A stretch of 64,000 bases of DNA from Halorussus rarus (lineage in GTDB: Archaea > Halobacteriota > Halobacteria > Halobacteriales > Haladaptataceae): NCBI RefSeq assembly GCF_003369835.1, contig NZ_QPMJ01000001.1, positions 992,001 through 1,056,000 of the forward strand. Reading direction: 5' to 3'. The translations under genes and the position numbers were made by a program. The notes below the pieces were generated by a model that did not search any database, was not told the origin of the DNA, and saw nothing but the letters and a program-made list of their open reading frames with translations. Shown piece after piece: positions 43,219 to 60,875 of this stretch (positions within the stretch are counted from its first letter, which is position 1; every line of letters starts with the position of its first letter).

Positions 43219-43293
43219 GCTCCGTTGGTGTAGTCCGGCCAATCATCTTGCCCTCTCACGGCAAGGACCAGGGTTCGAATCCCTGACGGAGCA
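43219..43293 (+). tRNA. tRNA-Glu (anticodon CTC)
   Basis: A full cloverleaf can be drawn: acceptor stem GCTCCGT/ACGGAGC, anticodon stem TTGCC/GGCAA with loop CTCTCAC (anticodon CTC), T-arm CAGGG-TTCGAAT-CCCTG, discriminator base A. No intron and no encoded CCA. It reads GAG codons, which are frequent in this genome. It is followed at once by phage-type repeats and an integrase, so it is also the integration target. Confidence 0.95.
43266..43293 (+). other. Probable attL core (tRNA 3' half)
   Basis: The T-arm and acceptor 3' strand of the tRNA gene (28 nt) are the usual crossover core for archaeal tyrosine integrases. Exact limits cannot be set without the right-hand copy. Confidence 0.5.
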
Positions 43294-43359
43294 CTTCCAT
43301 CCTTCTCCCGTCATGCAGTTTTCGTCCGTGAACAATGGTGAAACCAACGCATGTTCACG

Positions 43360-43489
43360 GGCAATTACCTTCGATGGACCGGTCGAACCTGCCGCCATCT
43401 TGCGATTAGCCAAATAGCGGCGGCAATTACCTTCGATGTACTGAACCCCGCGCCTTCTGGCGATTGGGTGAAATCGACGGGCAAGCACC
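43360..43489 (+). repeat. Direct repeats between attL and integrase
   Basis: GGCAATTACCTTCGATG occurs twice, at 43360-43376 and 43422-43438, with a degenerate third copy (GGCAAGCACC) at 43480-43489; spacing is 62 and 58 nt. The sequence before copies two and three is also similar (CGCC.TCT.GCGATT). They lie just left of the integrase start and may be arm-type binding sites for the integrase or its accessory factor. Confidence 0.65.
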
Positions 43490-43514
43490 TGGGTTCCCCG
43501 CGAGGTGGCAGGCA

Positions 43515-44639
43515 ATGAAGAACGCCGACGAGGCAACGACCCCTCTAGAGGGAATCACGGTCGTCCCCGAACCCTCTGCAGAACTCCTCAACGAACGCCA
43601 ACAGATCGACTACCGCAACCAGCGCGAGCAGTGCCTCGAATGGCTGCTCGTATTCGGAAAAGACCCCAAGAAAGCCGAGGGTTACGCACGCACTACCGTC
43701 AAGAACCGCGCCCACCGAATGGACCAGTTCTACCGATGGGTGTGGGACCGCGACGGATACACGACGACCGTCACGCACGACCACGCCGACGCATACCTGA
43801 GATGGCTCGCCAAGCAGGACCACAGCAACGCCCACAAGGACAACTGCCGGAAGGCGCTACTGATGCTGTACAAGTGGCGCGAGCACGAACACGGGTTAGA
43901 CGAGTGGGACCCGGAGCTGTCCTTCAGTACCGGTCACAAGACGACTACGCCGCGCGACTACCTGACCCGCGAGGAACGCGGCCAGATTCGAGAAGCCGCG
44001 CTCGAATACGGAAGCGTCCCGTCGTACAAGGGCCTCGATTCCCAGGAGCGCGACCGGTGGAAGGCCTACCTCGCCCAGCGCTTCGAGAAACCGAAATCCG
44101 AAGTGACGCCGGAAGACTGGGACGAGGCGAACGGCTGGAAGATTCCGAGTCTCGTCTCGGTGAGTCTCGACGCAGGACTGCGTCCAATCGAAGTCGAGCG
44201 TGCCGTGACGGGCTGGGTCGATATCGAGAACGCCGTGTTGCGTATCCCGAAGGAGCAGTCCTCGAAGAACACCGGCCACTGGATCGTGGGTCTTCAGGAC
44301 CGGACGGCCGAGACGCTCGACCGATGGCTTGAGCAGCGTGAGAACGACCCGACGTACGACGATACCGACAAGCTCTGGCTGACCCGGTTCAGCAACACCT
44401 ACGGGTCAGCCTCACTGCGAAAGGTCCTCCGCCGGCTCTGCGATCAGGCGGACATCCCATACGAAAACCGACAAATGAGTTGGTACTCAATACGTCACTC
44501 TACTGGTACTTACATGACCAGAGAGGAAGATCTCGCCGCAGCCCAAGCTCAACTCCGGCACAAGAGTCCAGAGACGACGATGAAGTACGACCAAGCGCCC
44601 GTGGAGGATCGTCAGGACGCATTAGACCGGATGGGGTGA
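43515..44639 (+). CDS. int: Tyrosine recombinase/integrase
   Basis: A 374-residue phage-type integrase. The N-terminal SAM-like core-binding domain covers about 30-140. Catalytic residues can be placed: Arg223 in GLRPIE, Arg327-His328 in SIRHSTGT, the QLRHKSPETT segment, and nucleophile Tyr358 in TMKYDQ. The start MKNADEATT at 43515 is preferred to a TTG at 43464, which lies within the direct-repeat region. It should recombine the tRNA-Glu att site. It is convergent with a second integrase-like gene 31 nt away. Confidence 0.92.
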   Translation: MKNADEATTPLEGITVVPEPSAELLNERQQIDYRNQREQCLEWLLVFGKDPKKAEGYARTTVKNRAHRMDQFYRWVWDRDGYTTTVTHDHADAYLRWLAKQDHSNAHKDNCRKALLMLYKWREHEHGLDEWDPELSFSTGHKTTTPRDYLTREERGQIREAALEYGSVPSYKGLDSQERDRWKAYLAQRFEKPKSEVTPEDWDEANGWKIPSLVSVSLDAGLRPIEVERAVTGWVDIENAVLRIPKEQSSKNTGHWIVGLQDRTAETLDRWLEQRENDPTYDDTDKLWLTRFSNTYGSASLRKVLRRLCDQADIPYENRQMSWYSIRHSTGTYMTREEDLAAAQAQLRHKSPETTMKYDQAPVEDRQDALDRMG

Positions 44640-44670
44640 GAATCTCAGCTAGCTGCTAGGTGACCGATTC

Positions 44671-45990
44671 TCAATCGTCCTCGGACAACAATTTTCGCGC
44701 CAAGTCAACACGCTGCTCTCGACTATCCACAATCGCATCGATGTGATTGGGAGAACTATACTCCGATGATGTGGTGGAGTGTTCCTGGGGCTGTGGAGTT
44801 GATTGGTCTGGTTCGTCCGCATAGGGATTGAACCCCTCTTCCTCGACCGCTCGCCGTGCGGTTTCGTTTACTTTTTCGAGCGTATGCCGTCGGCTCTCGA
44901 TGGTGGACTCACCGTAGGTCTGCTTCGTAGTCTCGATGTGTTCGTGGCGAAGTTGATCGCGTGCTTGCGACACGTCCTCTGTTTCTTCGATTGACTGTCC
45001 CAAGTTGTGCCGGAGACTGTACCACACAATCTTCCGGTTCTCGCGGTCGATGCCAGTTTCATCGCAGAGCTGCCTGAGTAGGTAGCAGAGATTCTTCGAA
45101 TTGTACGGGTTCCCGTCACGGTTGAGCCAGAGACGGTTCGTTCCGTCGTATTTCTCGTAGTGGCGACGCTCTTGCATCCACTTGCTAAGCAAATCGCCAG
45201 TTCGCTCTGTTAGCGGCAGTTCTGTAGTCGGGCGGTTTTTGCCGGCATCTTCTTTCGTGATTTTGAGGATGTTCCGCTTCGCGTCGTACCAGTCCGTACG
45301 CGCTCGCTTGACCTCAATCGGAATGATCCCCGTTTCCAGGGCCACGGCGATGAGCGAACCGACTTTATTGCTGGTGTCTGCGCGCTCCCAGTCTTTTCTC
45401 ATGACTTCGGCTTTCGGTTTCCCGAGTCGCTGCGCGACTAGACTATCGATCTTGTCGCGCTCCTCCTCGGACGTCTCGTAGTACGATGGCAGCGAACCGT
45501 ACTCCTTTGCCGCTTGGAGAACCTGCCAACGCTCTTTGAAATTTAGTTTGTCGGCGTGTTCGTGCTCACCGTCAGTGAAGTTGATCCGCGGCCGCCATTT
45601 CTCTGCCCCGTTCTGGTCGTGCTTCCACGCGAAGTACTTCTGGAGCGCATCAGCGAACTTCCGCTTGCTCGTCTCCGAGTACGGATCACCGCTCTGCGTG
45701 CAGATTTCGTCACGGTCCAACCACTTGACGATCAGATCCGCCTGATCGTGCGTGAGTTCCGTCGGGTCCGATGGGTTAAAGCGGTCGATGACGAATCTGA
45801 AGACTTGGTCAACGCGTGCGTGATAGTTCTCCGACAGCGACGATGACAGCGGCTGTCGTCGGTTCGGGTTCTTCCCCTTCGTCAGCATCCAGTTGTAGAA
45901 CTCGTCGAGATCGCGCTGTACTCTGCTCGCGTCGTCACTGAGTGACTCCGCAAGCGCGTTCGTGATCGGTTTTGGTTGGTGGTCTGGCAT
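44671..45990 (-). CDS. Integrase-like protein lacking first catalytic Arg
   Basis: A 439-residue tyrosine recombinase paralogue of the neighbouring integrase. Alignment by eye is clear across the core (AQRLGKPKAEV, SLIAVALETGIIPIEVKRA, KEDAGKN, IVWYSLRHNLGQS, LRHEHIETT followed by a Tyr). At residue 223, where the other integrase has catalytic Arg, this one has Ile (ATT). The box II Arg and nucleophile Tyr remain. A 70-residue Ser/Gln-rich tail follows. It may be a non-cleaving accessory or a decayed copy; being uninterrupted, a retained role is plausible. Confidence 0.85.
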   Translation of the reverse strand: MPDHQPKPITNALAESLSDDASRVQRDLDEFYNWMLTKGKNPNRRQPLSSSLSENYHARVDQVFRFVIDRFNPSDPTELTHDQADLIVKWLDRDEICTQSGDPYSETSKRKFADALQKYFAWKHDQNGAEKWRPRINFTDGEHEHADKLNFKERWQVLQAAKEYGSLPSYYETSEEERDKIDSLVAQRLGKPKAEVMRKDWERADTSNKVGSLIAVALETGIIPIEVKRARTDWYDAKRNILKITKEDAGKNRPTTELPLTERTGDLLSKWMQERRHYEKYDGTNRLWLNRDGNPYNSKNLCYLLRQLCDETGIDRENRKIVWYSLRHNLGQSIEETEDVSQARDQLRHEHIETTKQTYGESTIESRRHTLEKVNETARRAVEEEGFNPYADEPDQSTPQPQEHSTTSSEYSSPNHIDAIVDSREQRVDLARKLLSEDD

Positions 45991-46684: not shown

Positions 46685-47020
46685 TTATCCGTATCCGAGT
46701 AGTCCGTAGTCCGTAGTCCTGTAGGATTTCGCCAGTCGTAGCGTAGCATCACGTTGTTTCCGAATCTGTTCCTCAGACACATTCGGAGGCTCGTACTCGT
46801 CACCGCGTAATTCAGCGACCAACTCCTCGGCCTCCGGTTCGGGAACGAACACGTCGAGTGCCATCGCTAGCAGGTCTTCATCTGCGTCTTCGTAGCCAGC
46901 GAGTGCATCAGCCAACATCAGCAACGACTCCAGTTTCGTCTCTCCCTGCGTCGTCACTCCGGTCTCTTCGTCCGTAATCACGAACCAATCGTCTTCTCGC
47001 TCAATCGTAATCGTCGGCAT
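46685..47020 (-). CDS. HicB-like antitoxin-type protein
   Basis: A 111-residue acidic protein beginning MPTITIEREDDWFVITDEETGVTTQGET, a partial RNase-H-like HicB fold (beta-beta-beta-alpha with LESLLMLADALAGYE). The C-terminal 40 residues contain an EEQIRKQRDATLRLAKSY helix. No HicA-like partner is visible on either side, so it may be an orphan regulator. Its last codons lie in a 7-nt tandem repeat (CCGTAGT units, about 46694-46718). It is divergent from the PLD-ATPase gene, with 107 nt between. Confidence 0.6.
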   Translation of the reverse strand: MPTITIEREDDWFVITDEETGVTTQGETKLESLLMLADALAGYEDADEDLLAMALDVFVPEPEAEELVAELRGDEYEPPNVSEEQIRKQRDATLRLAKSYRTTDYGLLGYG

Positions 47021-47097
47021 GATTTTCTCAACAGCGAGGAATGGTAAGTGTCTCCGGGTACGGTTAGAGTGCACCACCCTATCACTCTGTGGCAGGG

Positions 47098-47105
47098 GTT
47101 TATTC
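47098..47105 (+). promoter_or_regulatory. TATA-like box of PLD-ATPase gene
   Basis: GTTTATTC about 26 nt before the ATG at 47128. It supports a leaderless start at that ATG rather than at the in-frame GTG at 47113. Confidence 0.55.
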
Positions 47106-47127
47106 GTGTTAGGTGAATGCCTCCTTT

Positions 47128-49404
47128 ATGAACGAACTGAGAGCGAATATCTCGTTCGACAGGTTCGCGGATATGCCGGAGTTCTACGGATCGGGTGCTG
47201 CGAAGTACCGCCTGGCGATGGTGAAAGAACGAGACGACTTCCTCGACCTGTTCGAAGGCGCTCGTCACGTGGATGCGGTGACGTACGCGGAGACGCCCGA
47301 GCTGATGGTGAAGATGCTGACCGAGTACGACATCGGGTCGCTGGACGTACTCATCGGGAACGCCGAGGACTACGCAGACCAAGTGAGCGAAGTCTCGACG
47401 GCGAGGTCTCTCGTCCGACTTCGGCAAGACGACCGGCTTACCGTTCGACTGAAGAATCGGAAGACCGTCCACTCGAAGATCTACCGGATCGTCATGCCGG
47501 ACGACACGGTGAAGCTCGTACAGGGGTCGGCGAACCTCTCGCGGAACTCGTGGGAGTACCACACGAACCAGATCTCGGTCTTCACGACTGAGGTCGGGAC
47601 TGAGCTGGACGAGGAGTTCGAGCGGTTTATCGACGAGTACCGCGAGGGGTACAGCGACCAGACGCTCCTTGAGGGGCTCGTTGAAGCGCTGGAGGAGGCC
47701 GATTCGCCGGAGGAGCGGGAGAACCGCATCGAGTACTGGGTCGGTGCGGGCGACCTCGACGTCAGTGATACGGCCGCCCTGAACCAGGATGCCGTCGAGG
47801 ATCTGAAAGACGTCGCCGACCAGGTCACCGCCGTCGTCGACGATCCCGATGAGGCCGACGAGACGGTCGCGTTCGTCGAAGAACCCGAGAACGCAGACCG
47901 CAGCGTCGTCGAACCAGACACTTCGACAGGTGAGGAAGAGTCCGACGAGGATGTGGACAGTGACCAGTCGCCGGATGTCGGGCTCGTGGAGTCGGACCAC
48001 GAAACGGAGTTGACGGATACGCTTGACCGGCCGCGGGTTCGCGCACCCGACGAGAAGATTCGGATGGGAACTAGCAAGGTGGACAAGGATACCGCGGACG
48101 AGTTCGGAGCCGGTCTCCGTGACCGCGGTGCGACCGTCGAAGACCACAGCATCACCGCGCCGCTGAGCGCGTACAACAATCAGGTCAAAGAATCGACGGC
48201 CATCCCGACGATGTCGGTCCTTCCGGAGGCCGAGCAGGTCGTGATCGGCGAGGACGACGAGATGATTCTCGTCGCCACCGACGAGCCGACGCCCGAAGTC
48301 CTGGATCACTGCCTCGAAACCATCGAGGACTACATCGAGACCGTCGAGAACCACGGCCACACGCAGTCCGAGACCGCAGTAATGGCGCAGATGTACGAGG
48401 CGTTCCTCTACGGGTTCTGGGCTCCGTTCGCCAACCAGTACGCTGAAGCCCTCTCGTCACCGTCGCGGACGCTGGATAACGTCCTCCAGCATCTCTACAT
48501 CGAAGGAAAGAGCGACGCAGGGAAGGACAAGCTCACCGAGTACATTCTTCGACTCGTCTCCGACAACACAGTCATCTCCGGTGTCGACGCGGACGAGGTC
48601 GGCGTAAAGGAGGTCCGTGGCGTCCGCGAGTGGGACACGTGCTTCCCGTACGCAATCATCGACGCGGAGAAAGAGAAGATCCAGCGGTGGAGCCCGATTC
48701 GGAACTACTGGGGCGACTGGACGCCGACCAGCGTCGATCAGCCGTGCCTCATCTTCACGACGAACGACGCGCTTCCGAAATCTGAGTTCCGGAACCGGAT
48801 GAAAATCCTGAGCATGGATGTCTCCTTCCCCTCCAACCCGGAAGACCCAGGCTTCCGCGAAGCGCAAGAAGACCTTTCGGACGTGTTAGAACGGCAGAAC
48901 CCGATCTTCAGTTACGTGGCCCGCCGGATGCTCACCGAGCAACCGTGGACTGACGGGAACGGTACTATCGAAGACGTCCGCCGCATTGTCCGCGAATTCT
49001 ACGACGAAGCGGGTCGAGAGCAACCCGAGTACTTCCCCGCTGACGAGCCGGCCGAAAAAACGTATGATACGGGTCGGTTGAAATGGCAGCGGGATATCCA
49101 AGGCGGCCGTGTCACGTTCGAGCCGGAGCCGAATGCCATCACAGCTGACTTCGACCGCGAAGAGTATGAGGTGTACGACTACGAGAAGCGCCTCCCCAAA
49201 CGATTCATGTCCGAGAAATCGTCCACAAGCGTCTATATCGGCGCACCAGAGGAATTCGCTGAGTGGATCGGGTACTCGGTTGACGAGCTACTGAATGGTG
49301 CTACTAAGACAGAATCTGATACCACCCAGCAAAATAGCGGCTCGGAAGACAACGTGGATGATAGCGAATCGACTGGCTTCTTCGCACGATTGCTTGGCAG
49401 CTGA
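47128..49404 (+). CDS. PLD-nuclease / P-loop ATPase fusion (copy 1)
   Basis: A 758-residue protein. Residues about 25-175 form a phospholipase-D-type nuclease module with one HxK motif: His115, Lys117 (VHSKIYR) and Asn136 in GSANLS. One HKN motif means a dimer would make the active site. An acidic linker covers about 210-310. The C-terminal ATPase has Walker A GKSDAGKD (Gly460, Lys466), then YAIIDAEKEKI and IFTTNDALPKSEFRNRMK, resembling SF3/AAA+ motif C and an arginine finger. The same architecture occurs in the minus-strand operon gene at 58695-60812. Confidence 0.85.
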   Translation: MNELRANISFDRFADMPEFYGSGAAKYRLAMVKERDDFLDLFEGARHVDAVTYAETPELMVKMLTEYDIGSLDVLIGNAEDYADQVSEVSTARSLVRLRQDDRLTVRLKNRKTVHSKIYRIVMPDDTVKLVQGSANLSRNSWEYHTNQISVFTTEVGTELDEEFERFIDEYREGYSDQTLLEGLVEALEEADSPEERENRIEYWVGAGDLDVSDTAALNQDAVEDLKDVADQVTAVVDDPDEADETVAFVEEPENADRSVVEPDTSTGEEESDEDVDSDQSPDVGLVESDHETELTDTLDRPRVRAPDEKIRMGTSKVDKDTADEFGAGLRDRGATVEDHSITAPLSAYNNQVKESTAIPTMSVLPEAEQVVIGEDDEMILVATDEPTPEVLDHCLETIEDYIETVENHGHTQSETAVMAQMYEAFLYGFWAPFANQYAEALSSPSRTLDNVLQHLYIEGKSDAGKDKLTEYILRLVSDNTVISGVDADEVGVKEVRGVREWDTCFPYAIIDAEKEKIQRWSPIRNYWGDWTPTSVDQPCLIFTTNDALPKSEFRNRMKILSMDVSFPSNPEDPGFREAQEDLSDVLERQNPIFSYVARRMLTEQPWTDGNGTIEDVRRIVREFYDEAGREQPEYFPADEPAEKTYDTGRLKWQRDIQGGRVTFEPEPNAITADFDREEYEVYDYEKRLPKRFMSEKSSTSVYIGAPEEFAEWIGYSVDELLNGATKTESDTTQQNSGSEDNVDDSESTGFFARLLGS

Positions 49405-49470
49405 CCGGCCCTTAATTAGCGATATAATCGGGTTTGTTTCACGAAAGTACCAACTCAGGTCTTGGTCAAG

Positions 49471-51741
49471 TCAGAGTTCTTGCTGGAGGATTACATGGAT
49501 ACGGTCTAGTACCGGGTTGCAGTTGCTGTTATTTCGTGCTGTTTGCCGCAATTCGTCGAACAACTCAGCCAGCGTATTCACGGTCTCATCCCTCATCTCT
49601 GGTGGATTAATCACTGGAACCTGTTCCAATTGGTTCGGTTCGATTTTATCGAGGCCGCCATCCCGCGTTTGCTTGTACTTACGAACAACCTCGTCGAAGA
49701 TGTCGCTATTGAGGTACGCTAGTAACGCTTTCAGTTCGGTCTCTGAAAGCGTGATGTCGTAGAAGCCGTAGCAAGCGTTTGTATTCCGCACATCTGTTTC
49801 GTTCAAGATGAACCTGAACTGATCTCGGCTCGCATTTTGAACGAGGACGCGAGTTGGATCTTTTCGTCGAGGACGGTACCAGTACGGACGGTTCGAGAAC
49901 GTGCTCGTGTCATTAAGCCCATATTCAATTACACCGTCTCGAAGGTACTCTCGCACGGCCGAGTACCCGTTCTCGATATCGGATCGCTCGGGCGCTTCTC
50001 TATTTGCCCCCTTCGAGAACTGGTGTTTGAAGTCCGCGATCGTATTCGGGACTCGGGGTATTTGATCAGGATCCAGAAGCCAGACGTCTTTCCCGTTCGC
50101 GCGTGCTTCTTGCCAGTTGAACTCTTGGTAGTCGTATCCGTCTATCTGACTCGGCTTACGGACGATCCGTGACAGGTGGCGTTCGTCAAGGTCGTTCTCC
50201 TCAACCTCCTGTTTTGACAAGCAGAAGAGATTGACTTCGCCTGTGGTTGGACCACGGTGGATGGTGAGGAACTTCCCAAGTTGTGGGAGGTGGCTCGTGT
50301 CGATCTCGACGGGGTCGAACAGTACCTGCCAGTTCTTCTTGGGGCGAAGGTCCGTCTGTGGAACACGATTGATGAAGCCCCAGTCAGTTGAACCCGGCTC
50401 ACCGTTTTCGACTGCCTCACGGATCATCTTCGACTCGACTTTCTCGTCGACACGAATGAAGTGCGTCTCGCCAGCTGTCTCACCCTCGGGTTTCGCTTCT
50501 AAGAACGTGAGCAGAGCAGTCGTGTCGGCATTGTCGAAGACACAGTAGCTCTCCGGGTTGAATTGTACGAACGCTTTGATTGTGTAGTTGTCGAGGAGGA
50601 ACTGCTTTAGCGACTCCCCGTATCGATTGCTGAGGAAGCTTTGCGGGGTGATGAAGGCTGCACGATCACCTGGCGACAGGAAGGCACGTGAATGGTAAAT
50701 AAAGTAGGCATGGAGGGGTGATCGAGCGCTTATTTCGATCCCTGTAGCCTCCTCCAGTTGCGTGTTAGTCCGTTCTTTGTACCAGTCCTGGAGTGCATCC
50801 CCCTTCGTGTACGGCGGGTTACAGACGATTGCATCAACATCCTGTTGTAGATCCGCAGGTCGGAGATTGAGAAAATCAGTTTCATTCAACTCATGCGGTT
50901 GCCCGGACAAGGTCAGCGCAGTGCTTCCCATGAGGAGTGCGAGTTGGCTCCGGTCGATCCCGTTAATGCGCGCTGGATCGGTACTCAGACGCCAGTCCGG
51001 GTGAAATGGACTAGACAGGACGCCGGCTCCCATCCCAGGATCCATGACGGTATCATCGCTTTCCCCTGCCCATGACTGCATTAACTGACCAATGTCAGGT
51101 GGTGTCCTGAACTGGCTGAGCACCTGTCGGCATTCCTTCGGAGTTACTGCCTCGTAGAGTCGTCCGATGTCTTCCGCGGGTTGCGTGGACGCAAGCAACC
51201 GATCTCGATTCTCGTCGATGACCTCCATCTCCGATTCATCGACATGGAGAAGGAAATAATCCAACACGCACTCTCCGAAACCTGGATTCGCCCCAACCTC
51301 TGCAACACTTTGAATTATCTCCCAAGTATCGGCAGGGAACTCCGGCAACTCACCACGTCGATGATGCCACTCATACACGGTGGCCTTTAGCAACCGGGTC
51401 AAGACGGCCTGGCGGGCGACGAGGCGTCTCCTAGCACTGGTAGTCGCATCATTCAACCCATGAGACAGACACCATGTATCGACTCGCCCGTGGAGTGAGT
51501 CTGGGATCTCAGCGAAGGCTGGTGCGAGTCGATCAGCTACCGTTGTGATGATCTCGGCGAGGCGGTCGGTGTCAACTGACCGGCTGAACTCGGGTATCCC
51601 GTGATCCTTATCTACCCACTGATGATCAGGCGCAGCAGGAGTTATCGGTGATATATCTGCCATTTCCGCCTTACTCAGGGCCAATTCCAGATCTACTGGA
51701 GTGTCTGTACGGCAGCGTCGAAGGTTCGTTTCATCTAACAT
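49471..51741 (-). CDS. N6-adenine-type DNA methyltransferase
   Basis: A 756-residue protein of the Eco57I/TaqI/HsdM-like gamma methyltransferase group. Motif I is DPGMGAGVL (Asp234) and motif IV NPPY at 308-311, with FRTPPDIGQLM just before motif I and ARSPLHAYFIYHSRAFL after motif IV. The C-terminal half (about 430-730) looks like a target-recognition region. No nuclease domain is evident, so it could be a solitary methylase or the modification arm of the island. The N-terminal 200 residues are helical and unassigned. Confidence 0.82.
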   Translation of the reverse strand: MLDETNLRRCRTDTPVDLELALSKAEMADISPITPAAPDHQWVDKDHGIPEFSRSVDTDRLAEIITTVADRLAPAFAEIPDSLHGRVDTWCLSHGLNDATTSARRRLVARQAVLTRLLKATVYEWHHRRGELPEFPADTWEIIQSVAEVGANPGFGECVLDYFLLHVDESEMEVIDENRDRLLASTQPAEDIGRLYEAVTPKECRQVLSQFRTPPDIGQLMQSWAGESDDTVMDPGMGAGVLSSPFHPDWRLSTDPARINGIDRSQLALLMGSTALTLSGQPHELNETDFLNLRPADLQQDVDAIVCNPPYTKGDALQDWYKERTNTQLEEATGIEISARSPLHAYFIYHSRAFLSPGDRAAFITPQSFLSNRYGESLKQFLLDNYTIKAFVQFNPESYCVFDNADTTALLTFLEAKPEGETAGETHFIRVDEKVESKMIREAVENGEPGSTDWGFINRVPQTDLRPKKNWQVLFDPVEIDTSHLPQLGKFLTIHRGPTTGEVNLFCLSKQEVEENDLDERHLSRIVRKPSQIDGYDYQEFNWQEARANGKDVWLLDPDQIPRVPNTIADFKHQFSKGANREAPERSDIENGYSAVREYLRDGVIEYGLNDTSTFSNRPYWYRPRRKDPTRVLVQNASRDQFRFILNETDVRNTNACYGFYDITLSETELKALLAYLNSDIFDEVVRKYKQTRDGGLDKIEPNQLEQVPVINPPEMRDETVNTLAELFDELRQTARNNSNCNPVLDRIHVILQQEL

Positions 51742-51750
51742 CGGGGTAGC

Positions 51751-51771
51751 CTGCCATCATGAATCTGGCAG
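51751..51771. promoter_or_regulatory. Inverted repeat at methyltransferase promoter
   Basis: CTGCCA (51751-51756) and TGGCAG (51766-51771) flank nine bases immediately downstream of a minus-strand TATA-like TTTATA (about 51774-51779) and just before the methyltransferase ATG. The position fits a repressor operator. Confidence 0.45.
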
Positions 51772-51790
51772 TTATAAACCCTCGCCCCCT

Positions 51791-51839
51791 GAGTCCGAGA
51801 TTCTAACGCTACAGGCCGTTAGAAGCCAAATTCGGACTC
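51791..51839. repeat. Two-tier perfect hairpin
   Basis: Outer arms GAGTCCGA (51791-51798) and TCGGACTC (51832-51839), inner arms TTCTAACG (51801-51808) and CGTTAGAA (51817-51824), eight-base loop. All 16 pairs are perfect, with a small asymmetric internal loop. It could be a structured RNA, a terminator region for the operon or a recombination site. Confidence 0.7.
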
Positions 51840-51912
51840 ACAGCGTGGACACCCAACTGACAGCACGACCATATCGCCAATAAGGGCAATTGAGTACCCC
51901 GATTGCCAAGAG

Positions 51913-52188
51913 TCAGCGGCGAATCAATGGTGAACCACCGCGCGCGCAGGCCGATATGGAAGGGAGTTCATCAATGAATTTTTTGTAATCCCAGTATAGC
52001 GCGAAGGCTTTCCAAAGACACGACAGAGGCAAGCCGAGAACCGCTCCTGAGATAGTTAGCCGGCCAGTCAAAGAATTTCCCATAGATTGGTGTCGGAGTA
52101 CCCAATCGTCATTCGGTGCCAACCCAACGAGATTGATTTCCTCTTCCCCGTGCCCCCAGCGGCCGACTTCCGAGTACGGATCGATCAT
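51913..52188 (-). CDS. Possible small protein, unrecognised
   Basis: A 91-residue reading frame from ATG 52188 just downstream of the AddA-like gene on the same strand. It has one hydrophobic stretch (about residues 50-68, GAVLGLPLSCLWKAFALYW) that could be a membrane helix and an Arg-containing C-terminus unlike typical acidic halophilic proteins. No homology recognised and no clear promoter; it may be spurious. Confidence 0.25.
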   Translation of the reverse strand: MIDPYSEVGRWGHGEEEINLVGLAPNDDWVLRHQSMGNSLTGRLTISGAVLGLPLSCLWKAFALYWDYKKFIDELPSISACARGGSPLIRR

Positions 52189-52280
52189 GCCAAATCGAAT
52201 CCCTCGCAGGCGGCTTCTTGTCACACATCCCCCGAACGTGGTTACAACGTGCGTCGAGAGACTTCGCGTGGTGTCAATAT

Positions 52281-55200
52281 TTACTCCTCGAACCCTGGGC
52301 CAACGGTAAACGAGTCTGGTGCGCAGGGCAGTTGGTTGTGTTGACACCATTGACAGTGCTCGCCCGCAGTGTACCGACTGAACGAGAACTCAGCAATGCG
52401 GTTCATCGACGTCGTCACGTCATCTCTGACTGCTTCCAGGTCACTATCGCTGAATGTTCGGGATTCAACTTTTGGACCGATGTCTCCGACATAGGCGTAT
52501 CCCGCACGTGCTACAGGTCTATCGTACAGGTCGCGGCACGCTAACAGGTAGATTGGGAGTTGTTTGTCGTCCTGTAGGTCGCGGTGGCGTTCGGTCGCCT
52601 TGTAGTCGATGACGACCAGTTCGTCGTCAGGCGTCCGGTAGATGGCGTCAATGTAGCCGACGAGTTCGTGCCCATCGATATCGAGTTCGAATTCTCGCTC
52701 CGCGTCGATGATCTCGTAACTGTGGAGATCTAACTCGAAGTACCGGTCGATGCATTGTTTTGCCGCCGGGAGCGCGTCCTCAGAGCGGCGCTGGCTGGCG
52801 AGTCGCTCGCAGATCTCGTACCACTCTTCACGGCGTTTCACATCTTGATTCGCAGCTTGCTCGGCGGTGTCGTGGAACAACAACCCGATTGTACGTTGCG
52901 ACACGCCACCACCGGCGTCGCTTGTGGTCTCTTGGTAATCGGGGAACGCGTTGATCACGTACTCCAAGTAGTGACTCCGCGGGCAGTCCTCGTAGGCCGC
53001 CAGTGACGTGTAGCTGTGAGAGAGCGAGGGCGACGGTGTCGACGGGCCAGTCAGCGACGTAACTTGGAGGGCCTCCCGCTCAGTTACTGGTGAGAGATTC
53101 CCGTCGAGGGTGGCCGTTGCAAGGTTTAGCACGCGGTCACGTGCAATCTCAACGGCGAGCTCCTCCCCACCGTGCCTGACGGTCCCGCCGATATTTCCGA
53201 CAGTCTCGCTGGCCAGCGTGTTCGTCCAGTCTACTGCGTCGTCCGGGAGACACTCTTGAACATCAGTCCAGAGCGGAAGATGCCCTCGCTCTGGCTGCCA
53301 TGGGATTCGAGGTGGGAGAATCTCGCCGACCACTTCCGAAACCGAATCCTCGTCCGCAGCATCGTCGCCTTCCTCGCGGCCACCCTGCAGGACGAGGATG
53401 TCCTCGGCACGCGTGATTCCGACGTGGAACACGCGGCGTGTCTCACGGGCATCACGCTCGACGAAGTCCTGCGCGAACGCTGCTTCCGCGCCATCCGAGA
53501 GGCTGGTTTCGAGCGCGTCGTACGTACGTGAGCTCGGGGCCCATTCATCAGCCGTGACTTGTGGGATGAGGACGACCGGGAAGTCCAGGCCCTTGCTTTT
53601 GTGGATGGTCATCACGTTAACGGCGTCGTCGGCGACGTCCGGCTGACTTGTGGGTGTGGTGCCACTCTCGTCGAACAGGGAGTCGTAGTGTTCGAGCGAG
53701 TCGATGAACTCCGGCGTGAGCGGTGGTTGGACAGCACTGTCTCCGTACTGTTCGATGACGTCCTCCAGTTGGGCGAGATCCCGGCGCTCTTGCTCGCTGA
53801 GATACCACTCGATGTTCGTGCGGTCCGTGAGCTCGCGGTACAGGTGGCTGAGCGACGCCGAATCACGGATATCGAGTAGTTCCGTGACGTGCTCGCGGGC
53901 TTCTGCGACGCGGTCAGGCTCCTCAAACTCGTCGAGCGGCGTCTCCTGAAGCGCATCCACGAGCGGGTCGTCGCCCGCGTTGAGCGTGCGGAGGTCGGCG
54001 TCGCACAGACGGTACCGCATTAGGAGGATGCGATTCCAACTTACCTCGTCTTCGGGGCGTGCGAGCGCCTTCAGGTAGGCAGTGACGGTTCCGACGCCGA
54101 CTGATTCCGTGGCCAGATCGCCAGCAACCTGGTACGGGATGCCAGCATCTTCGAACTCGTCGATGACAGGCGTCGCGTGGGCGTGCTTCCGAACGAGTAA
54201 CGCGATGTCGCCTGGGTCGTACGCCTCGTCGAGGTTTTCTGCTGCGCCGCTCACCAGATTCTGGACGACGGTGCGAAGCTGGGTCGCACCATCCGCATCG
54301 TCCTCGTCCGGCAGTTCGACGGTTGCGACGGTGTCGCCGTCATACGCAGGTTCGTCGACGCGTTTCAGTGTCTTGTGTCGTTCGCGGTGATCGAGCTTCT
54401 GAATCGCTTCGTTCGCCAGGTTGAGGATCGGCTGTCGGGACCGAAAGTTTTCTTCTAACGGTTCATCTTCGAGTGTGGCGAACGCGCGGTCGAGTTCGTC
54501 AGTGATGTTGGCGACGTTCGCGCCACGCCACTCGTAGATCGCCTGATCGTCGTCACCAACAACAAACAGGTTCTCGTCGGTGACCAGCGACGTTACGAGA
54601 TCGAACTGAAGCCGGTCGGTGTCCTGGAACTCGTCACAGAACACGTAGTCCCACCGATCGGCGATTTCCTCACCAACCGGCGAGTCCATCAGCGCAGCCG
54701 TCTTGACTACCAGGCCGTCGAAGTCAATGAGATTGCGCTCGTCCAGTTCTCGCTCGTACGCAACGTACCCTGCGGTGAGATCTCGGGCAGCAAGACAGTC
54801 GGAAACGAACGAGTCGAGGTGGTCCGTGAGTTCAAGATCCAAATCGTCCGGGATCCCTTTCGGAGCACCGCTTGCGTACCCTCCAAACAGGTACTTCGGG
54901 AGTTTGTACGCGTTGTCTGGCAGATCACGCTCGCCATTCTGGTGGGCCTCGAACGCGGTTTCAAGCGCATCACACAGATCGACCAGCCGGTCGAGGAAAT
55001 CCCGAGCACTGGCTTCGATCCCCTCCGTTCCCAATGCATCGCGTTCCGCGGCGAGCTCATCGCGCACATCGGGGAGTGAGTCCAGCACGCTCGACACGGA
55101 CCGGCCGCCGAGATTATCGCTGGCAATCGTTTCGATGCGTTCCGGCAGGTCGGCGAGATCGTAGACGCGGTCGGCGGGCCCGAGGAACGCGTCGATGTCG

Positions 55201-55733
55201 TCTGGCGAGATGCCGCTGCGCTTCATCGACCCGATAAAGCTGAGCAGCTTCGATGCAGCTCCGGACGCGTACCCGTCGCTGCCGTACACGTTGGGTTTGA
55301 CCGACCGGTACTCGATGTCGTCCAGAACATCCAGCACGATAGCGTACTTCTCGGCGTCCGTGGCGACCTCGAAGTCCGGGGCGATCCCGGCTTCGTAGGC
55401 GTAGTCAGTGAGGATCTCGTTACAGATCGAGTGGTACGTGTACGCGTCGATGTCGTACCCCGCTGTCCCGAGTTTCGCGTTAAGCTTCTCCCGCATCGAG
55501 TCCGCCGCGTTGTTCGTGAACGTCAACGCGAGAATCCGGTCCGGCGAGACGTCTTCCTCGTCGATGAGGTGCTCGATCTTCCGCACCATCGTGAACGTCT
55601 TTCCCGTTCCTGCTCCTGCGAGCACACGCATCGGGTACGCATCGGAGTTGATGATTGTCCGCTGTTGAGGCTCTGGGGACACGTCTTCTTCCGGCACCGG
55701 GAACCAAGACGGGTACTCGGACTCGTCGCTCAT
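52281..55733 (-). CDS. AddA-like UvrD helicase with Fe-S nuclease domain
   Basis: A 1150-residue protein. The superfamily-1 helicase covers about 20-800: a Q-motif-like EPQQRTI, Walker A AGAGTGKT (residues 39-46), CDEFQDTD (motif II), VGDDDQAIYEWRGA (motif III), MTIHKSKGLDFPVVLIPQ (motif V) and GITRAEDILVL (motif VI). The C-terminal PD-(D/E)XK nuclease has Asp in GYIDAIYR and Asp1043-Tyr-Lys1045. A Cys in YEDCPRSHYL plus CQWCQHNQLPC suggests a 4Fe-4S cluster, as in AddB/Cas4 nucleases. It should unwind and trim DNA ends together with the two upstream products. ATG overlaps the previous stop. Confidence 0.88.
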   Translation of the reverse strand: MSDESEYPSWFPVPEEDVSPEPQQRTIINSDAYPMRVLAGAGTGKTFTMVRKIEHLIDEEDVSPDRILALTFTNNAADSMREKLNAKLGTAGYDIDAYTYHSICNEILTDYAYEAGIAPDFEVATDAEKYAIVLDVLDDIEYRSVKPNVYGSDGYASGAASKLLSFIGSMKRSGISPDDIDAFLGPADRVYDLADLPERIETIASDNLGGRSVSSVLDSLPDVRDELAAERDALGTEGIEASARDFLDRLVDLCDALETAFEAHQNGERDLPDNAYKLPKYLFGGYASGAPKGIPDDLDLELTDHLDSFVSDCLAARDLTAGYVAYERELDERNLIDFDGLVVKTAALMDSPVGEEIADRWDYVFCDEFQDTDRLQFDLVTSLVTDENLFVVGDDDQAIYEWRGANVANITDELDRAFATLEDEPLEENFRSRQPILNLANEAIQKLDHRERHKTLKRVDEPAYDGDTVATVELPDEDDADGATQLRTVVQNLVSGAAENLDEAYDPGDIALLVRKHAHATPVIDEFEDAGIPYQVAGDLATESVGVGTVTAYLKALARPEDEVSWNRILLMRYRLCDADLRTLNAGDDPLVDALQETPLDEFEEPDRVAEAREHVTELLDIRDSASLSHLYRELTDRTNIEWYLSEQERRDLAQLEDVIEQYGDSAVQPPLTPEFIDSLEHYDSLFDESGTTPTSQPDVADDAVNVMTIHKSKGLDFPVVLIPQVTADEWAPSSRTYDALETSLSDGAEAAFAQDFVERDARETRRVFHVGITRAEDILVLQGGREEGDDAADEDSVSEVVGEILPPRIPWQPERGHLPLWTDVQECLPDDAVDWTNTLASETVGNIGGTVRHGGEELAVEIARDRVLNLATATLDGNLSPVTEREALQVTSLTGPSTPSPSLSHSYTSLAAYEDCPRSHYLEYVINAFPDYQETTSDAGGGVSQRTIGLLFHDTAEQAANQDVKRREEWYEICERLASQRRSEDALPAAKQCIDRYFELDLHSYEIIDAEREFELDIDGHELVGYIDAIYRTPDDELVVIDYKATERHRDLQDDKQLPIYLLACRDLYDRPVARAGYAYVGDIGPKVESRTFSDSDLEAVRDDVTTSMNRIAEFSFSRYTAGEHCQWCQHNQLPCAPDSFTVGPGFEE

Positions 55734-56632
55734 CGTTGCACCTCCGTGGACAGTCGGTCAGTACACATCTCTCGGTAGTCGCAGTCCGGGCACGCCTCCT
55801 CAGTAATAAGGTCGAGCGGTTCCGGCTTGTACGTCTCACCCGTGATACCATCGTGGGCCTCCCGGATGAGCGCCCAAATCGTGTCGTAGTGGTTCTCGTA
55901 GATTTCCGTAGTTTCCCGAGGCCAGCCACGCGCGGACACGTCGTATCCGCTCGGGGTGCTCTCGAACGACGTGCTGTTGAGGATCCCGTAAAAACTGAAC
56001 CGAACCTCCATCCCGTCCTCGTAGAACGGTTCGTTCTTCACGCCTTCGACGTATGTCGCCGTCTGGAACGCGTTCCGGACCCGCTTCGGTTCGTGGGCCT
56101 CTCCGTCGAAATGGTCGCCAAGGTACTCGGCCGTCCCCGACGAAAGAACCCCGTCCGTGTTCCGCTTGTAGTCGAAAATATGCAGCCCGTCATCAGTCCG
56201 GACGACGTTGTCAGCTTTCCCGTGGAGTTCTCGACCATTCACTTCGCAGTCCACCCAACATTCCGTGGCGACCGAGTAGCGAGCATGCTCGATCCCGTCA
56301 CCGCCGTCCGGATCGAAGAACGACGCGATAGCAGCGCGGTTCTCAGCTCGCTGGTACTCCTGATGCGCAGCAGATTCGTAGTCATCCGGGGTACTGTGTT
56401 CGTCCCACTTCGCATCGAAGACCTGCATCGCCCGGTTGTGTATCGTCTCCGGGTCGTCATCGCGGTCAGTCGCATCACACACGTCCTCGATAGTCTCGTG
56501 GTAGATCGTTCCTTGGTTGAGATACAGTTCTGTACGGTCCGGCGCGTTCACGTCTTGCGCGTAGCGGTAGTCGTACAACCGCGGACACGTCGCGTAATTC
56601 GCTAACCGCGACGGGGAGAGCGACGAACTCAT
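55730..56632 (-). CDS. Cas4-like Fe-S PD-(D/E)XK nuclease
   Basis: A 300-residue stand-alone nuclease. SPSRLANYATCPRLYDYRY places Cys16 before the fold; active-site residues are Asp141 (GKADN) and Asp154-Tyr-Lys156 (IFDYKRN); CPDCDYREMC near the C-terminus gives three further cysteines for a 4Fe-4S cluster. This is the domain normally found at the C-terminus of AddB or as Cas4. It overlaps both neighbours by four bases, so it is made together with the AddB-like and AddA-like proteins and probably supplies the missing AddB nuclease. Confidence 0.87.
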   Translation of the reverse strand: MSSSLSPSRLANYATCPRLYDYRYAQDVNAPDRTELYLNQGTIYHETIEDVCDATDRDDDPETIHNRAMQVFDAKWDEHSTPDDYESAAHQEYQRAENRAAIASFFDPDGGDGIEHARYSVATECWVDCEVNGRELHGKADNVVRTDDGLHIFDYKRNTDGVLSSGTAEYLGDHFDGEAHEPKRVRNAFQTATYVEGVKNEPFYEDGMEVRFSFYGILNSTSFESTPSGYDVSARGWPRETTEIYENHYDTIWALIREAHDGITGETYKPEPLDLITEEACPDCDYREMCTDRLSTEVQR

Positions 56633-58689
56633 CGCCGCACCTCCCCGTTAGCGAATTCGACACGTGCACGCAACGCTTCTCGGAGCTCGTCTCCTCGGGA
56701 GCCGCTTTGTTCGAGCAGGTCCTGAATCTCACCGAGTTCCGCTTCGACCCCGTCAAGCGATACCGTCACGTCCTGACTGTTCGCGCGGCGCACCTCCGCT
56801 AACGCGTCATCAACCCGCGACAGCAGGAACTGCTCCGCCGCTTTCTCACTCGTAATGTGTGGCTCATCGGCCTCGGTCACCCACGGAAGCTCCGCATACG
56901 CCGCTGTGAGGAACCGCGACGCTTGCGTACGCTCTTCAAGGGCCGTGTCTTCGTACTCGTAGAGACAACAGTAGAGCCGCTCTGTCGCCGCGCCAGCACC
57001 GACAGCCAACCGTCGCCGTGCATGCTCCGTGTGGTAGTGGGCGAACGGTCGTCCTGACGCTGTCGACGTCGTCGGGAACGTCGCATCTACATCTGCTCCA
57101 TCGAGTTCCGTTACACCAGGGTAGTCCGGCATTGACGCGACTCGCTCGCTCGGGAACAACCGTGTCAGGAACGGGTCGCCTGGGTACTCACTGTCGACGA
57201 GATTTACGAGAAAGACCGCGCGGAAGGACTCGTTCTTGATCGCTTGCAAGTGATCGACGCGGACGCCGCCGTCGAGGTCCGTCGCGCTCGTCTGGTTCTG
57301 CTGCGGTGCGTACTCGTGAGCGCGTTCGAGCATCTCCTTGAACGACTCCCACGTCGCTTCCACGAACGCGGTCTCCTCAAGAAACTCGGCCATGCGGAAC
57401 GCCCGTCGGACGTTCCCGAACTGCGCCCGCGCATTCAACGGGGCCGCTCGCTCCGCGATCCGCTCTTTCAACCCCGCGTCTGTCGCCCACCAGCGGACCC
57501 CATCTTCGAGGCTGTCCATATCGCGGACGTGGTCTAAGCGCTCCGTATCGAGTTCCGGGCCGTGACCGGTTCCCTCATCCTCGTAGTCGGCAGCAAGATG
57601 TCGAACGGCAGCAAGGAGTTCCCGAATTGCAGGGTCGTCACCGAACCCAGTGACGGTCGTCGATTCAGTTGGAATCCCGGCGCGTTCGAGCGCTTCGATG
57701 GTATCCGTAACGGTACTCCCGCTTTGCTTCGTGGCGACAGCGATGTCGTCGTAATTACAGTCCAACTGTGCGACGAGGTCTTCGATCTCGTTGGCAATCT
57801 CGGCGAGTTGTTCGTCACTGGAGTCTGTAGCGAGGACGGACACCGACCCCGTTTCCGGGTCTGCCGGGGCCGTCTCGTCGGCGAAATACGCTGCTGTGGC
57901 AGCTGGTCGCGTCGAGGGCGTTCTCGATGTCCCGCGGCGAGACTCGCTGAACGAGACGTAGTCCGTGACTGGCCCTGTCTCGACCCACGTCCGGCGCACA
58001 CTCGCGTTCTCTTCGGCGATACAGACGAGTTCACAGTCCCCTACGAGAGCGTCGAGATACGCGCGGTCGAGCGGGAAGAACTCCTCAAACTCGACCGCGA
58101 GCACCGCGTCGAAATCAACGACGTCGCCGCGGGCATCCCCGGTGAGGACATCAAGCGCTTCCGAGATGAGTTGCCCGCGTTCCATGTGACCGTGCTCGGC
58201 CAGCCACTCGTGGAACGCGTCAAGCGCGGCCGTGATGTCACGGAGTTCCGGGGTTTCGTCAGGCGTGACCGTCTGCCAGGAGATCGTGCCCATCACAGCG
58301 TCCACGTCCTCGATAAACGACGGCTGTTCAGACGCCCGTTGGAGGTACTCCGTTTCCCACTCGTAGTCTGCGAGGAATCGATGGAGGAGTTCTCGCCGTA
58401 GCGCGTCGGAGAGAATGACGCGGTCATCAGCCTGATTGAGGACATCGGTCGCGTGCACGACGAGCGACGTCACGTACGGCGTCGCCGCACTCGGCAGTTC
58501 CGCACCTAACGTCTCCCGGAACGTGTCCGTACTCGTCGGCGCACCCGTGATGACGAGCACATCCTCAGAATCGTGCTCGTCGAGAAGCATCCGGTATTCG
58601 TCCCGCGCTGTCCGTTCGACGTTTTCGCCCCCGAACGGTGCCGTGACTAACGTCCCGTCGAATCGCCGGTGAGATGAGTGGTCAGACAT
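56629..58689 (-). CDS. AddB/RecC-like inactivated helicase
   Basis: A 686-residue protein that resembles AddB/RecC by layout. The N-terminus GTLVTAPFGGENVERTA sits where Walker A should be but lacks GK(T/S). Later segments VLAVEFEEFFPLDRAYLDAL and VDHLQAIKNESFRAVFLVNLVDSEYP correspond to helicase motifs II and V, and a final helical region ends without a nuclease domain. In AddAB the AddB helicase-like part recognises regulatory sequence (Chi) and holds the complex. Here the nuclease part is the next, overlapping gene. The family call rests on context and motif order rather than strong identity. Confidence 0.72.
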   Translation of the reverse strand: MSDHSSHRRFDGTLVTAPFGGENVERTARDEYRMLLDEHDSEDVLVITGAPTSTDTFRETLGAELPSAATPYVTSLVVHATDVLNQADDRVILSDALRRELLHRFLADYEWETEYLQRASEQPSFIEDVDAVMGTISWQTVTPDETPELRDITAALDAFHEWLAEHGHMERGQLISEALDVLTGDARGDVVDFDAVLAVEFEEFFPLDRAYLDALVGDCELVCIAEENASVRRTWVETGPVTDYVSFSESRRGTSRTPSTRPAATAAYFADETAPADPETGSVSVLATDSSDEQLAEIANEIEDLVAQLDCNYDDIAVATKQSGSTVTDTIEALERAGIPTESTTVTGFGDDPAIRELLAAVRHLAADYEDEGTGHGPELDTERLDHVRDMDSLEDGVRWWATDAGLKERIAERAAPLNARAQFGNVRRAFRMAEFLEETAFVEATWESFKEMLERAHEYAPQQNQTSATDLDGGVRVDHLQAIKNESFRAVFLVNLVDSEYPGDPFLTRLFPSERVASMPDYPGVTELDGADVDATFPTTSTASGRPFAHYHTEHARRRLAVGAGAATERLYCCLYEYEDTALEERTQASRFLTAAYAELPWVTEADEPHITSEKAAEQFLLSRVDDALAEVRRANSQDVTVSLDGVEAELGEIQDLLEQSGSRGDELREALRARVEFANGEVRR

Positions 58690-58694
58690 GGCGG

Positions 58695-60812
58695 TTACCC
58701 TCGGACGAGCCGCGTGACCCGAGACAGAACGCCGGTGTCAGCAGCTGTTTCAGTGTCGTGTCGTGCATCTTCGATGATACTGAGCTCATCTATCCAATCC
58801 TTGAACCTCTTTGCGCTTTCAAACTGGACTGCCGGCCCGTAAATATTGGCCCGGATATGGGCTGGCGTAGCCTTCTGGAACTCCCAGCACTGCTGCTGAT
58901 CCAGATGCGCTGAGAAATCAGCGATGACACGTCCGTCGTCCTTGAAATCGAGTTCACATAGCCCGTCGGATAGCGCGCTGATCCACTTCCGACGTCCCGG
59001 GTCGTGTTCCTGCTCGGCGGGTTTCTCCAGCGGCACGTACTCTGGTCGTTCCTTCTCGGCATACGCGTACAGCTCCGCGAACACGTCCCGAGCATCCGCG
59101 AGTCGGTCCGACTGGTCTGGAAGCGAGATATCCCGCTGCAAGATCAAGTGAGCGAACCACGGGAACAGGTTACAGCTGTCCGCTTTCCCCGCGATTTGTG
59201 CGGCCGATTCCCGTTCGTCCTTCTCCAGTTCGGAGAAGTTGACGTTGAAATCCAGCGTCTTCATCCGCGTTCGGAGTTCGGATTTAGGCTTCGTCGAGTC
59301 GTTCGAGGAGAAGATGAACGTCGGCATCTGGATGGAGCCGTCCCACTTCCCCTCCCAATACGACTTGATGATGTCCCGGTCGATCTTCGACTTCGCCACG
59401 TCGTCAACGATGTACGGGAAAACAGTGTCCGACGCACGAGCACGCTCGATGTTGTCTTTGACGAAGTCGTCGCCGGTCGTGACCTCCTGCACGTACCCGT
59501 TCGAGATGAGCCGCGCCCCGAACCGCAGGAACATGCCCTTCCCGCTGTCGTTGTCGCCGTGTAGGAACAGGAACGGCAGATCCTTGTCCAGCTCCGCAGA
59601 TTCGTATTCAGCGTAGTGATGGGCGCAGTAGTTAGCGAACGGAGCCCAGCAGAAGTAGATAACACCCTCGTAGAAGTGCGCACGCGTCTCCTTCGTCGTT
59701 CTCGTTTCCCCGAACTCTCCGACCGTTTCGACGTACTGCTCGATCAGGTCGAGCGCGTCAGCGACTTCCTGCGGGTCATCCGGGAGTGGTGCCGATAATT
59801 CGAGGACGGAGTCGTCAACCCGTAGCCCGACCGTCTTCTCTTCCTTGTCGACGTTGAGGTCAGGATACCCGGTGAAGGTCTCTTTGTACCGTGCGATACC
59901 GGCGGGTGTCGCTACGATTTCACCGTCGTTGATACGGATGTTATTGGCGGACAGCGTGTCGTCCAGATTCGAGATAGCGTCTTCGAGACCCTGCGGAGAG
60001 AGGCGCACACGCTTGTCCGGACTAATCTCTGTTGGGTCGGTATCCGTATCTTCGGCGGCGAACACCGCCTTCTCTGCTTCTTCGGCGTCAGTGACGACAT
60101 TGTACGTGTTGACTTGGTCGTCGTCAACTGCTTCGTCGAGCCGGGCGTTCAGCTCGGCGACCGGGTCATCACTGAACTCGTCCCCGCCCAGCCAGATATC
60201 GTAGATTTTCGCCTCTTCTTCTGCCGTTTCAGCGTCTTCGATCTCCTCCGTGAGATCCTCCATGAACGGCGTCGCGTAGTCCTTGTGGAACGCGTAGAGT
60301 CGTTCAAACCACTCGTCGACGGGCGTGTCCCCGTCGGTACGCCAGGCCATGTTGACGTTGGTTTGTTTGCTCCCCTGCCAGGCCTGCTTGGAGAGGTTCG
60401 CCGACCCACAGATGAGTGTGCGAGATCCGTCCTGGTTCTCGACAATGTAGATCTTCGTGTGGAGGAGAACGCGCGCGGAATCGACGGTGTGAATGAGGAG
60501 ATCACCGTCTCGCCGCAGTGATTCCAGTTGCGCGGCGATTTTCTTCGCGTTGTTCGTGTTCTTCAGCGACCGCCGGTAGTCGTCGTGCTGGTTGTCCCCG
60601 ACGATGACCTCCAGCGAGTCCACTGAGAGGTCCCGGTTCTGAAACATCTTGTAGATGAACGCCGGGGACTGACTGTACGTGACGCAGTAGACGTGCTGGG
60701 CGTCACCGAAGTAGTTCAGGAAGCTGTCCCATGATTTGTCGGCAGCCATCTCCAGGTCGGCGGTGCTGCCGTCATCGAACTCGACTGTTGCTTCGAATTC
60801 TGTCTTGGTCAT
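58695..60812 (-). CDS. PLD-nuclease / P-loop ATPase fusion (copy 2)
   Basis: A 705-residue paralogue of the plus-strand copy. The PLD module has His118, Lys120 (LLHTKIYIV) and Asn139 in GSANLS. The C-terminal ATPase has Walker A GDNDSGKG (Gly419, Lys425; the usual Ser/Thr after Lys is Gly), FPYIVDDVAKSKIDRD as a Walker-B-like segment, and IFSSNDSTKPKSELRTRMK, matching the other copy's TTNDALPKSEFRNRMK. It starts 63 nt after the Argonaute gene and ends 5 nt before the AddB-like start. It may act as an ATP-gated nuclease on DNA located by Argonaute. Confidence 0.85.
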   Translation of the reverse strand: MTKTEFEATVEFDDGSTADLEMAADKSWDSFLNYFGDAQHVYCVTYSQSPAFIYKMFQNRDLSVDSLEVIVGDNQHDDYRRSLKNTNNAKKIAAQLESLRRDGDLLIHTVDSARVLLHTKIYIVENQDGSRTLICGSANLSKQAWQGSKQTNVNMAWRTDGDTPVDEWFERLYAFHKDYATPFMEDLTEEIEDAETAEEEAKIYDIWLGGDEFSDDPVAELNARLDEAVDDDQVNTYNVVTDAEEAEKAVFAAEDTDTDPTEISPDKRVRLSPQGLEDAISNLDDTLSANNIRINDGEIVATPAGIARYKETFTGYPDLNVDKEEKTVGLRVDDSVLELSAPLPDDPQEVADALDLIEQYVETVGEFGETRTTKETRAHFYEGVIYFCWAPFANYCAHHYAEYESAELDKDLPFLFLHGDNDSGKGMFLRFGARLISNGYVQEVTTGDDFVKDNIERARASDTVFPYIVDDVAKSKIDRDIIKSYWEGKWDGSIQMPTFIFSSNDSTKPKSELRTRMKTLDFNVNFSELEKDERESAAQIAGKADSCNLFPWFAHLILQRDISLPDQSDRLADARDVFAELYAYAEKERPEYVPLEKPAEQEHDPGRRKWISALSDGLCELDFKDDGRVIADFSAHLDQQQCWEFQKATPAHIRANIYGPAVQFESAKRFKDWIDELSIIEDARHDTETAADTGVLSRVTRLVRG

Positions 60813-60875
60813 GCGAGGGTTACCGGTGTGTTGGCGGGTACGTGAGTGGTTGCGTGAATCTGTACTGGCGCATGT

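Follow-up and report, generated by a model that had tools for sequence, protein, structure and literature searches.

Arg I is among the most conserved residues of tyrosine recombinases, and both XerC and XerD keep it. One integrase without the first Arg has been described from CTnDOT; a downstream Arg substitutes for it, according to excerpts of that description (PMC8138268). Joint use of two paralogous tyrosine recombinases is known for Xer, where each of XerC and XerD binds one half of a core, as stated in passages of PMC5357621. In GInt elements (ginABCD), three integrases and a small protein are encoded in one operon; these elements are reported in bacteria, not archaea, in the excerpted text of PMC5385486. 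The recombinase fold also occurs in a regulator: passages of PMC10516654 describe the SP-beta repressor MrpR as having the fold without recombinase function, with most catalytic residues lost and Lys and Tyr kept for DNA binding. According to extracts of a 2021 review, the characterised archaeal integrases integrate and excise without a directionality factor (PMC8371274).

Here we describe Int1 and Int2, two haloarchaeal tyrosine recombinases. We favour, with a probability of roughly 0.5, the reading that they form a two-recombinase tRNA-Glu module, in which Arg253 of Int2 would stand in for Arg I and Int2 would be active with Int1. The substitute residue in IntDOT, the CTnDOT integrase, is reportedly Arg285, near the catalytic Lys. 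Int2 resembles IntDOT, as the latter is portrayed in excerpts, in that the box I Arg is absent and a downstream Arg is conserved in its place. However, IntDOT is bacterial and has an N-terminal arm-binding domain, whereas Int2 is haloarchaeal, is always paired with a classical Int1 and carries its Arg after the Lys; the proposed relocation in Int2 probably had an independent origin. Int1 and Int2 are paralogous tyrosine recombinases, like XerC and XerD, but their genes are convergent and lie in a mobile island, and one partner is without Arg I. The islands share with GInt, as far as the excerpts on that family go, several tyrosine recombinases at one island end with cargo, but they have two convergent integrase genes rather than three integrases and GinD in one operon. 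MrpR/YopR and SroF share the recombinase fold with Int2, and MrpR has also lost some catalytic residues. Int2, unlike MrpR, shows one loss relative to Int1, not the loss of most catalytic residues, and a linked recombinase gene and att site accompany it. The integrases of haloarchaeal HSTV2 and HF2-type viruses are 28-33% identical to Int2 over the recombinase part, and in two virus stretches with neighbours listed there is no second integrase beside the gene. No report of this integrase pair was found among the top-ranked literature matches listed, a set whose scope left out most subscription papers.

A clade that lost Arg I while fixing another Arg, together with relatives that have both, offers a plausible stepwise route for moving a catalytic residue. 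An altered enzyme beside a normal partner gives a direct way to ask whether recombinase partners divide the chemistry, and the pair would add a two-recombinase module to archaeal integration.

Two convergent recombinase genes, one without the box I Arg

The window, i.e., the whole 64,000-nucleotide stretch of Halorussus rarus DNA that we analysed, comes from an assembly with an estimated contamination of 4.31%. Profile matches and residue alignment identify int1 (43515 to 44639, forward strand) as encoding a classical tyrosine recombinase of 374 aa with an intact Arg223, and int2 (44671 to 45990, reverse strand) as encoding a paired tyrosine recombinase of 439 aa without the box I Arg. The genes are convergent, with 31 bp between them. 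As the initial annotation had stated, the two proteins align over the catalytic core (36% identity across 372 aligned columns; E, 7e-75) and the int2 frame is open over 439 codons. Residue 223 of Int1 is Arg (codon 44181-44183, within GLRPIEV). In Int2, codon 223 (45322 to 45324, reverse strand) is ATT, giving Ile in GIIPIEV at the usual place of the catalytic Arg I. These residues, which the annotation had already set against each other, fall in one alignment column, and Int2 does keep the box II Arg327 and the nucleophile Tyr359 (TAC, 44914 to 44916, reverse strand) that had been ascribed to it.

Box II reads YSxR instead of HxxR in both proteins, a point missed earlier; judging by the alignments, its first His is already Tyr family-wide. 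Int2 does not have the complete R-K-H-R-H/W-Y set in the usual places, with no box I Arg and Tyr for the first His. PF00589 was matched above its gathering score by both Int1 (1.3e-12) and Int2 (5.5e-12); it was the sole Pfam match, found in 12 of 14 Int2 proteins. Xer-type NCBIfam models were matched below cut-off only, and neither integrase was matched by PADLOC.

Int2 occurs only in pairs with Int1

We searched 392 genomes of the order with Int2 as the query and 391 genomes of the class with an Int2 alignment (the samples overlap), with further searches in four families (28, 170, 125, and 146 genomes). These yielded 28 distinct Int2 loci in haloarchaea, including a named Salinibaculum KK48 record, and in every one of the 28 int2 converges with an Int1 gene. 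In 24 of them, the pair directly follows an intact tRNA-Glu(CTC) gene; G321, G023, and one G422 locus have just a 3′ part of this gene, and the other G422 locus is cut off by the end of its contig. The int1 and int2 genes overlap or are separated by no more than ~0.1 kb, except in G321 (~1 kb) and G160 (1.7 kb). Five loci (G456, G458, G481, G491, and G518) were added after the pattern had emerged; the four with an intact Int2 fit it, and the Int2 of G458 is broken. In total, 3 of the 28 pairs have a broken Int2 (G172, G054, and G458) and 2 have a broken Int1 (G023 and G437). The 25 intact Int2 copies diverge down to ~36% identity.

Relatives at tRNA-Glu with no Int2 alongside exist (10 examined); thus, the targeting of tRNA-Glu does not in itself require Int2. 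Viral contigs scanned with the Int2 alignment, Int1, and the Int1 alignment gave no relative; relatives were found when two virus integrases served as queries. A plasmid search returned five weak partial matches, none covering 80%.

Loss of Arg223 and an invariant Arg253 in Int2

The initial annotation had proposed checking whether Ile is conserved at residue 223 and had named Arg in homologues as evidence against its view. Residue 223 is Arg in none of the 25 intact Int2 proteins (Ile in 8, Thr in 7, Ala in 7, Pro in 2, and Leu in 1), so what is conserved is the absence of Arg, not Ile itself. Lys251, Tyr324, Arg327, His349, and Tyr359 are invariant in all 25, and Glu226, three residues after box I, in 14 of 14 aligned. 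Among catalytic positions, Arg223 is the sole loss in Int2 relative to Int1. The Int1 set has Arg223 in 25 of 25.

Arg253, encoded by CGC at 45232 to 45234 (reverse strand) in the window and lying two residues past the catalytic Lys251, is present in 25/25 Int2 but 0/25 Int1 proteins; the Int1 residue there is Thr (12), Ser (5), Glu (4), or, once each, Val, Ile, Ala, and Asp. At nine positions, a single residue accounts for at least 95% of the Int2 proteins yet is rare in Int1. Four of these are in the catalytic domain (L167, R253, N290, and D345), R253 being the sole basic one. Codon 253 varies synonymously among 22 Int2 sequences (CGC, 10; CGG, 5; CGA, 4; CGT, 3). This pattern, with Arg I absent (0/25) and another downstream Arg conserved (25/25), is that of a relocated Arg of the IntCTnDOT type and makes Arg253 the candidate stand-in for Arg I. 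It also comes close, on sequence grounds, to the second observation that the annotation had named against itself, that of another Arg in the box I role.

When the Int1 profile was aligned to XerA, Lys251 fell on the XerA hairpin Lys, which we take to be the catalytic Lys. With the Int2 profile alone, the register was off by three residues; hence, this placement of Lys251 is likely but not certain. Residues 223 and 251 are 28 residues apart, the same spacing as from R173 to K201 in Cre (numbering from passages of PMC10516654).

Six sequences gave an unusable structure model of whole Int2 (pLDDT, 42.6). For the catalytic domain (241 residues), 16 sequences gave a usable model with a pLDDT of 80.9 and a pTM of 0.80; confidence was below 50 for model residues 202-215, which end at Tyr359. 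This model matched XerA with a Z score of 17.4 and an rmsd of 2.9 across 159 residues; Z scores for the repressors MrpR/YopR and SroF were 10-11.5 (SroF, 11.5; MrpR, 10.3).

Descent and selection

We built an 80-row tree from an alignment that omitted columns 223 and 253. Int2 forms one clade, on one side of a branch with an SH-aLRT value of 97. The paired Int1 proteins also group in one clade (93), which contains, in addition, the Int1 of G260, where no Int2 was found in the 838 bases downstream. G049 is basal in both clades. Int1 and Int2 have co-diverged: their distances correlate with a Mantel r of 0.91 (0 of 9,999 permutations; n = 19), a correlation that linkage alone could explain. Outside Int2, 14 of 59 rows with Arg223 have Arg253 as well, and five of these 14 rank with the closest relatives of Int2. 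Such two-Arg enzymes supply an intermediate and fit a gain of Arg253 before the loss of Arg223.

The dN/dS of Int2 is 0.13-0.32 where computable, and that of Int1 is lower in all seven comparisons computable for both. These values, a check on Int2 homologues that the initial annotation had suggested, indicate from the coding sequences that Int2 is under purifying selection. Its statement that Int2 is not a case of simple decay held up, given the consistent lack of Arg at residue 223 across the 25 intact homologues, the open frames, and this low range of dN/dS.

The tRNA-Glu attachment site and the spacer before int1

In the window, ARAGORN places tRNA-Glu(CTC) at 43219 to 43294 (forward strand), ending 220 bp before int1; this gene is the integration target, restored by the element. 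A displaced 3′ tRNA-Glu fragment lies ~134.6 kb away in direct orientation (G000:C1:1169862-1169906), from which it follows that a large tRNA-Glu island has its left end in the window. The restored tRNA and the displaced fragment delimit a tRNA-integrating island from G000:C1:1035219 to 1169906, about 135 kb in length. The attachment core, TTGCC-CTCTCAC-GGCAA (43248 to 43264, forward strand), is the 17-bp anticodon stem-loop. Identity to the tRNA begins in the anticodon loop, or no more than 4 bases from it, in the 13 displaced copies listed, from this genome and others, and we infer from this that crossover occurs in the loop. With the window's tRNA as the query, the distal att was not found for several elements (e.g., G038, G072, G388, G436, and G428), possibly due to the choice of query.

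The spacer between the tRNA and int1 (43295 to 43514, forward strand) contains repeats with a 62-bp period (GGCAATTACCTTCGATG at 43360 and 43422), which we propose, from their sequence, to be arm-type recombinase sites. In 22 Int2-bearing loci, 213-244 bp separate the end of the tRNA from the first aligned residue of Int1; in the 16 of these aligned from residue 1, the separation is 219-222 bp, despite diverging sequence. The 10 relatives at tRNA-Glu that have no Int2 next to them show separations of 57-393 bp, seven of which are 159-187 bp, and G260 has 345 bp. Since the Int2-bearing Int1 proteins form one clade, the longer, near-constant spacer counts as one event, not many. Repeats with a period of ~62 bp are found in many spacers, and the best spacer self-match exceeded all 30 shuffles in 16 of 22 Int2-bearing loci and in 3 of 9 testable others. 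Related spacer motifs also occur on the left side of the distal att.

The region upstream of int2

We considered whether the sequence before int2 repeats the layout of the int1 att region, an idea that found no support. Three motifs had 0, 3, and 0 matches upstream of int2 versus 12, 34, and 16 upstream of int1, although the motifs were picked by eye on the int1 side, so that the int1-side counts and the rarity of the motifs in 10 Int2-less loci are biased. Five of 23 loci have, 162-1269 bp upstream of int2, a full copy of the 17-bp anticodon stem-loop core in the orientation opposite to the tRNA, with 0 (G160, G072, and G038), 1 (G428), or 2 (G388) mismatches; G023 has a copy with 3. In G428 and G388, the loop of the copy is the variant found in that lineage. 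When 0-2 mismatches are allowed, the 29.6 kb upstream of int2 contain 5 matches and the 365 kb elsewhere in the same loci contain none, with three there at 3 mismatches. At this threshold, the core is absent from 18 of 23 loci, the window included; it is also absent from the five late-added pairs. The int2-side core is a real but minority feature.

Explanations for Int2

In the two-recombinase module that we favour, Int1 and Int2 would insert haloarchaeal islands into the anticodon loop of tRNA-Glu(CTC). Int2 would have arisen from an Int relative, gained or kept Arg253 on the β2-β3 hairpin beside Lys251, and then lost Arg223. Arg253 would most likely do the job of Arg I, presumably through contact with the scissile phosphate, and Int2 would still cleave or ligate DNA; its active site has probably been rewired rather than died. 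Int1 and Int2 would most likely be unequal partners on one attachment site; each may bind or exchange one half, or one may integrate and the other excise. Such joint action is favoured by the strict pairing, the shared att site, and the near-constant spacer.

The initial annotation had proposed a non-cleaving accessory protein. Such an Int2, be it a directionality factor, an architectural subunit, or a repressor of int1, would keep the fold for binding att DNA. This fits the lack of Arg223 in every intact Int2 and has a precedent in MrpR as excerpts of PMC10516654 describe it; MrpR/YopR and SroF are among the fold matches, and the longer, near-constant spacer before int1 in Int2-bearing loci is as expected if Int2 binds there. 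Conserved Lys and Tyr in Int2 are no proof of catalysis, because MrpR keeps both for DNA binding alone, and Arg253 may have another role, because it also occurs in 14 enzymes with Arg223. However, Lys251, Arg327, His349, and Tyr359 are invariant in Int2, whereas MrpR, in the same excerpts, has lost most catalytic residues, and the invariant Arg253 lies beside Lys251. Since these four residues and Glu226 are conserved and Arg253 is specific to Int2, the "non-cleaving" part of the proposal is weakened, while a regulatory or directionality role is possible. We consider an accessory without cleavage activity rather unlikely. A catalytic Arg relocated to the β2-β3 hairpin appears the likelier of the two, because the loss of Arg223 is conserved, the other residues are strictly kept, and Arg253 is invariant near Lys251.

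The inverted attB-like core upstream of int2 in five loci would suit an Int2 that acts as an independent recombinase at its own nearby site, inverting the int1-int2 segment or accepting elements at the attB-like copy. That idea seems improbable given that most loci, the window and the later pairs among them, have no such core and that the arm-like motifs of the int1 side are not mirrored there. Also improbable is a heteromeric archaeal machine in which a CTnDOT-style Arg re-evolved independently and Int2 joined Int1 in one intasome with an enlarged arm array; in some lineages, the core beside int2 would then be recognised and the integrase segment would flip relative to the cargo. That Int2 is a decaying duplicate retained by linkage alone was already disfavoured and is very improbable: three broken copies and a dN/dS above that of Int1 point that way, but 25 copies are intact down to ~36% identity with catalytic-core residues invariant apart from Arg223, dN/dS is well below 1, and codon 253 shows synonymous turnover.

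Additional features of the islands

The C-terminal tail of Int2 (~65 residues; 44674-44865, reverse strand) has an H(I/V)DA-like motif conserved in most of 14 aligned members; neither Int1 nor the basal G049 protein has this tail. In four other tRNA-Glu islands (L107, L109, L110, and L111, in G234, G184, G074, and G379), the gene at the tRNA is Int1-like, and ~2-29 kb farther into the island a second recombinase gene converges with it; of the four enzymes encoded at this inner position, three have both Arg223 and Arg253. At L126:15600-15860, inverted GGCAAGGACCTGGG-like repeats lie no more than 200 bp from the distal att and resemble the end of the tRNA-int1 spacer. In G023 (L091 and L145), the Int pair and a partial tRNA-Glu lie ~88 kb from the intact tRNA and are inverted relative to it, inside a larger span that ends in another displaced tRNA copy; this arrangement suggests a past inversion.

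The cargo next to int2 in the window (46685-63545) resembles a defence island. It encodes PLD-like proteins (47113-49404 and 58695-60812), an Eco57I/TaqI-type methylase (49471-51741), a UvrD helicase with PDDEXK (52281-55733), a Cas4-like PDDEXK nuclease (55730-56632), and a long prokaryotic Argonaute (60876-63545).
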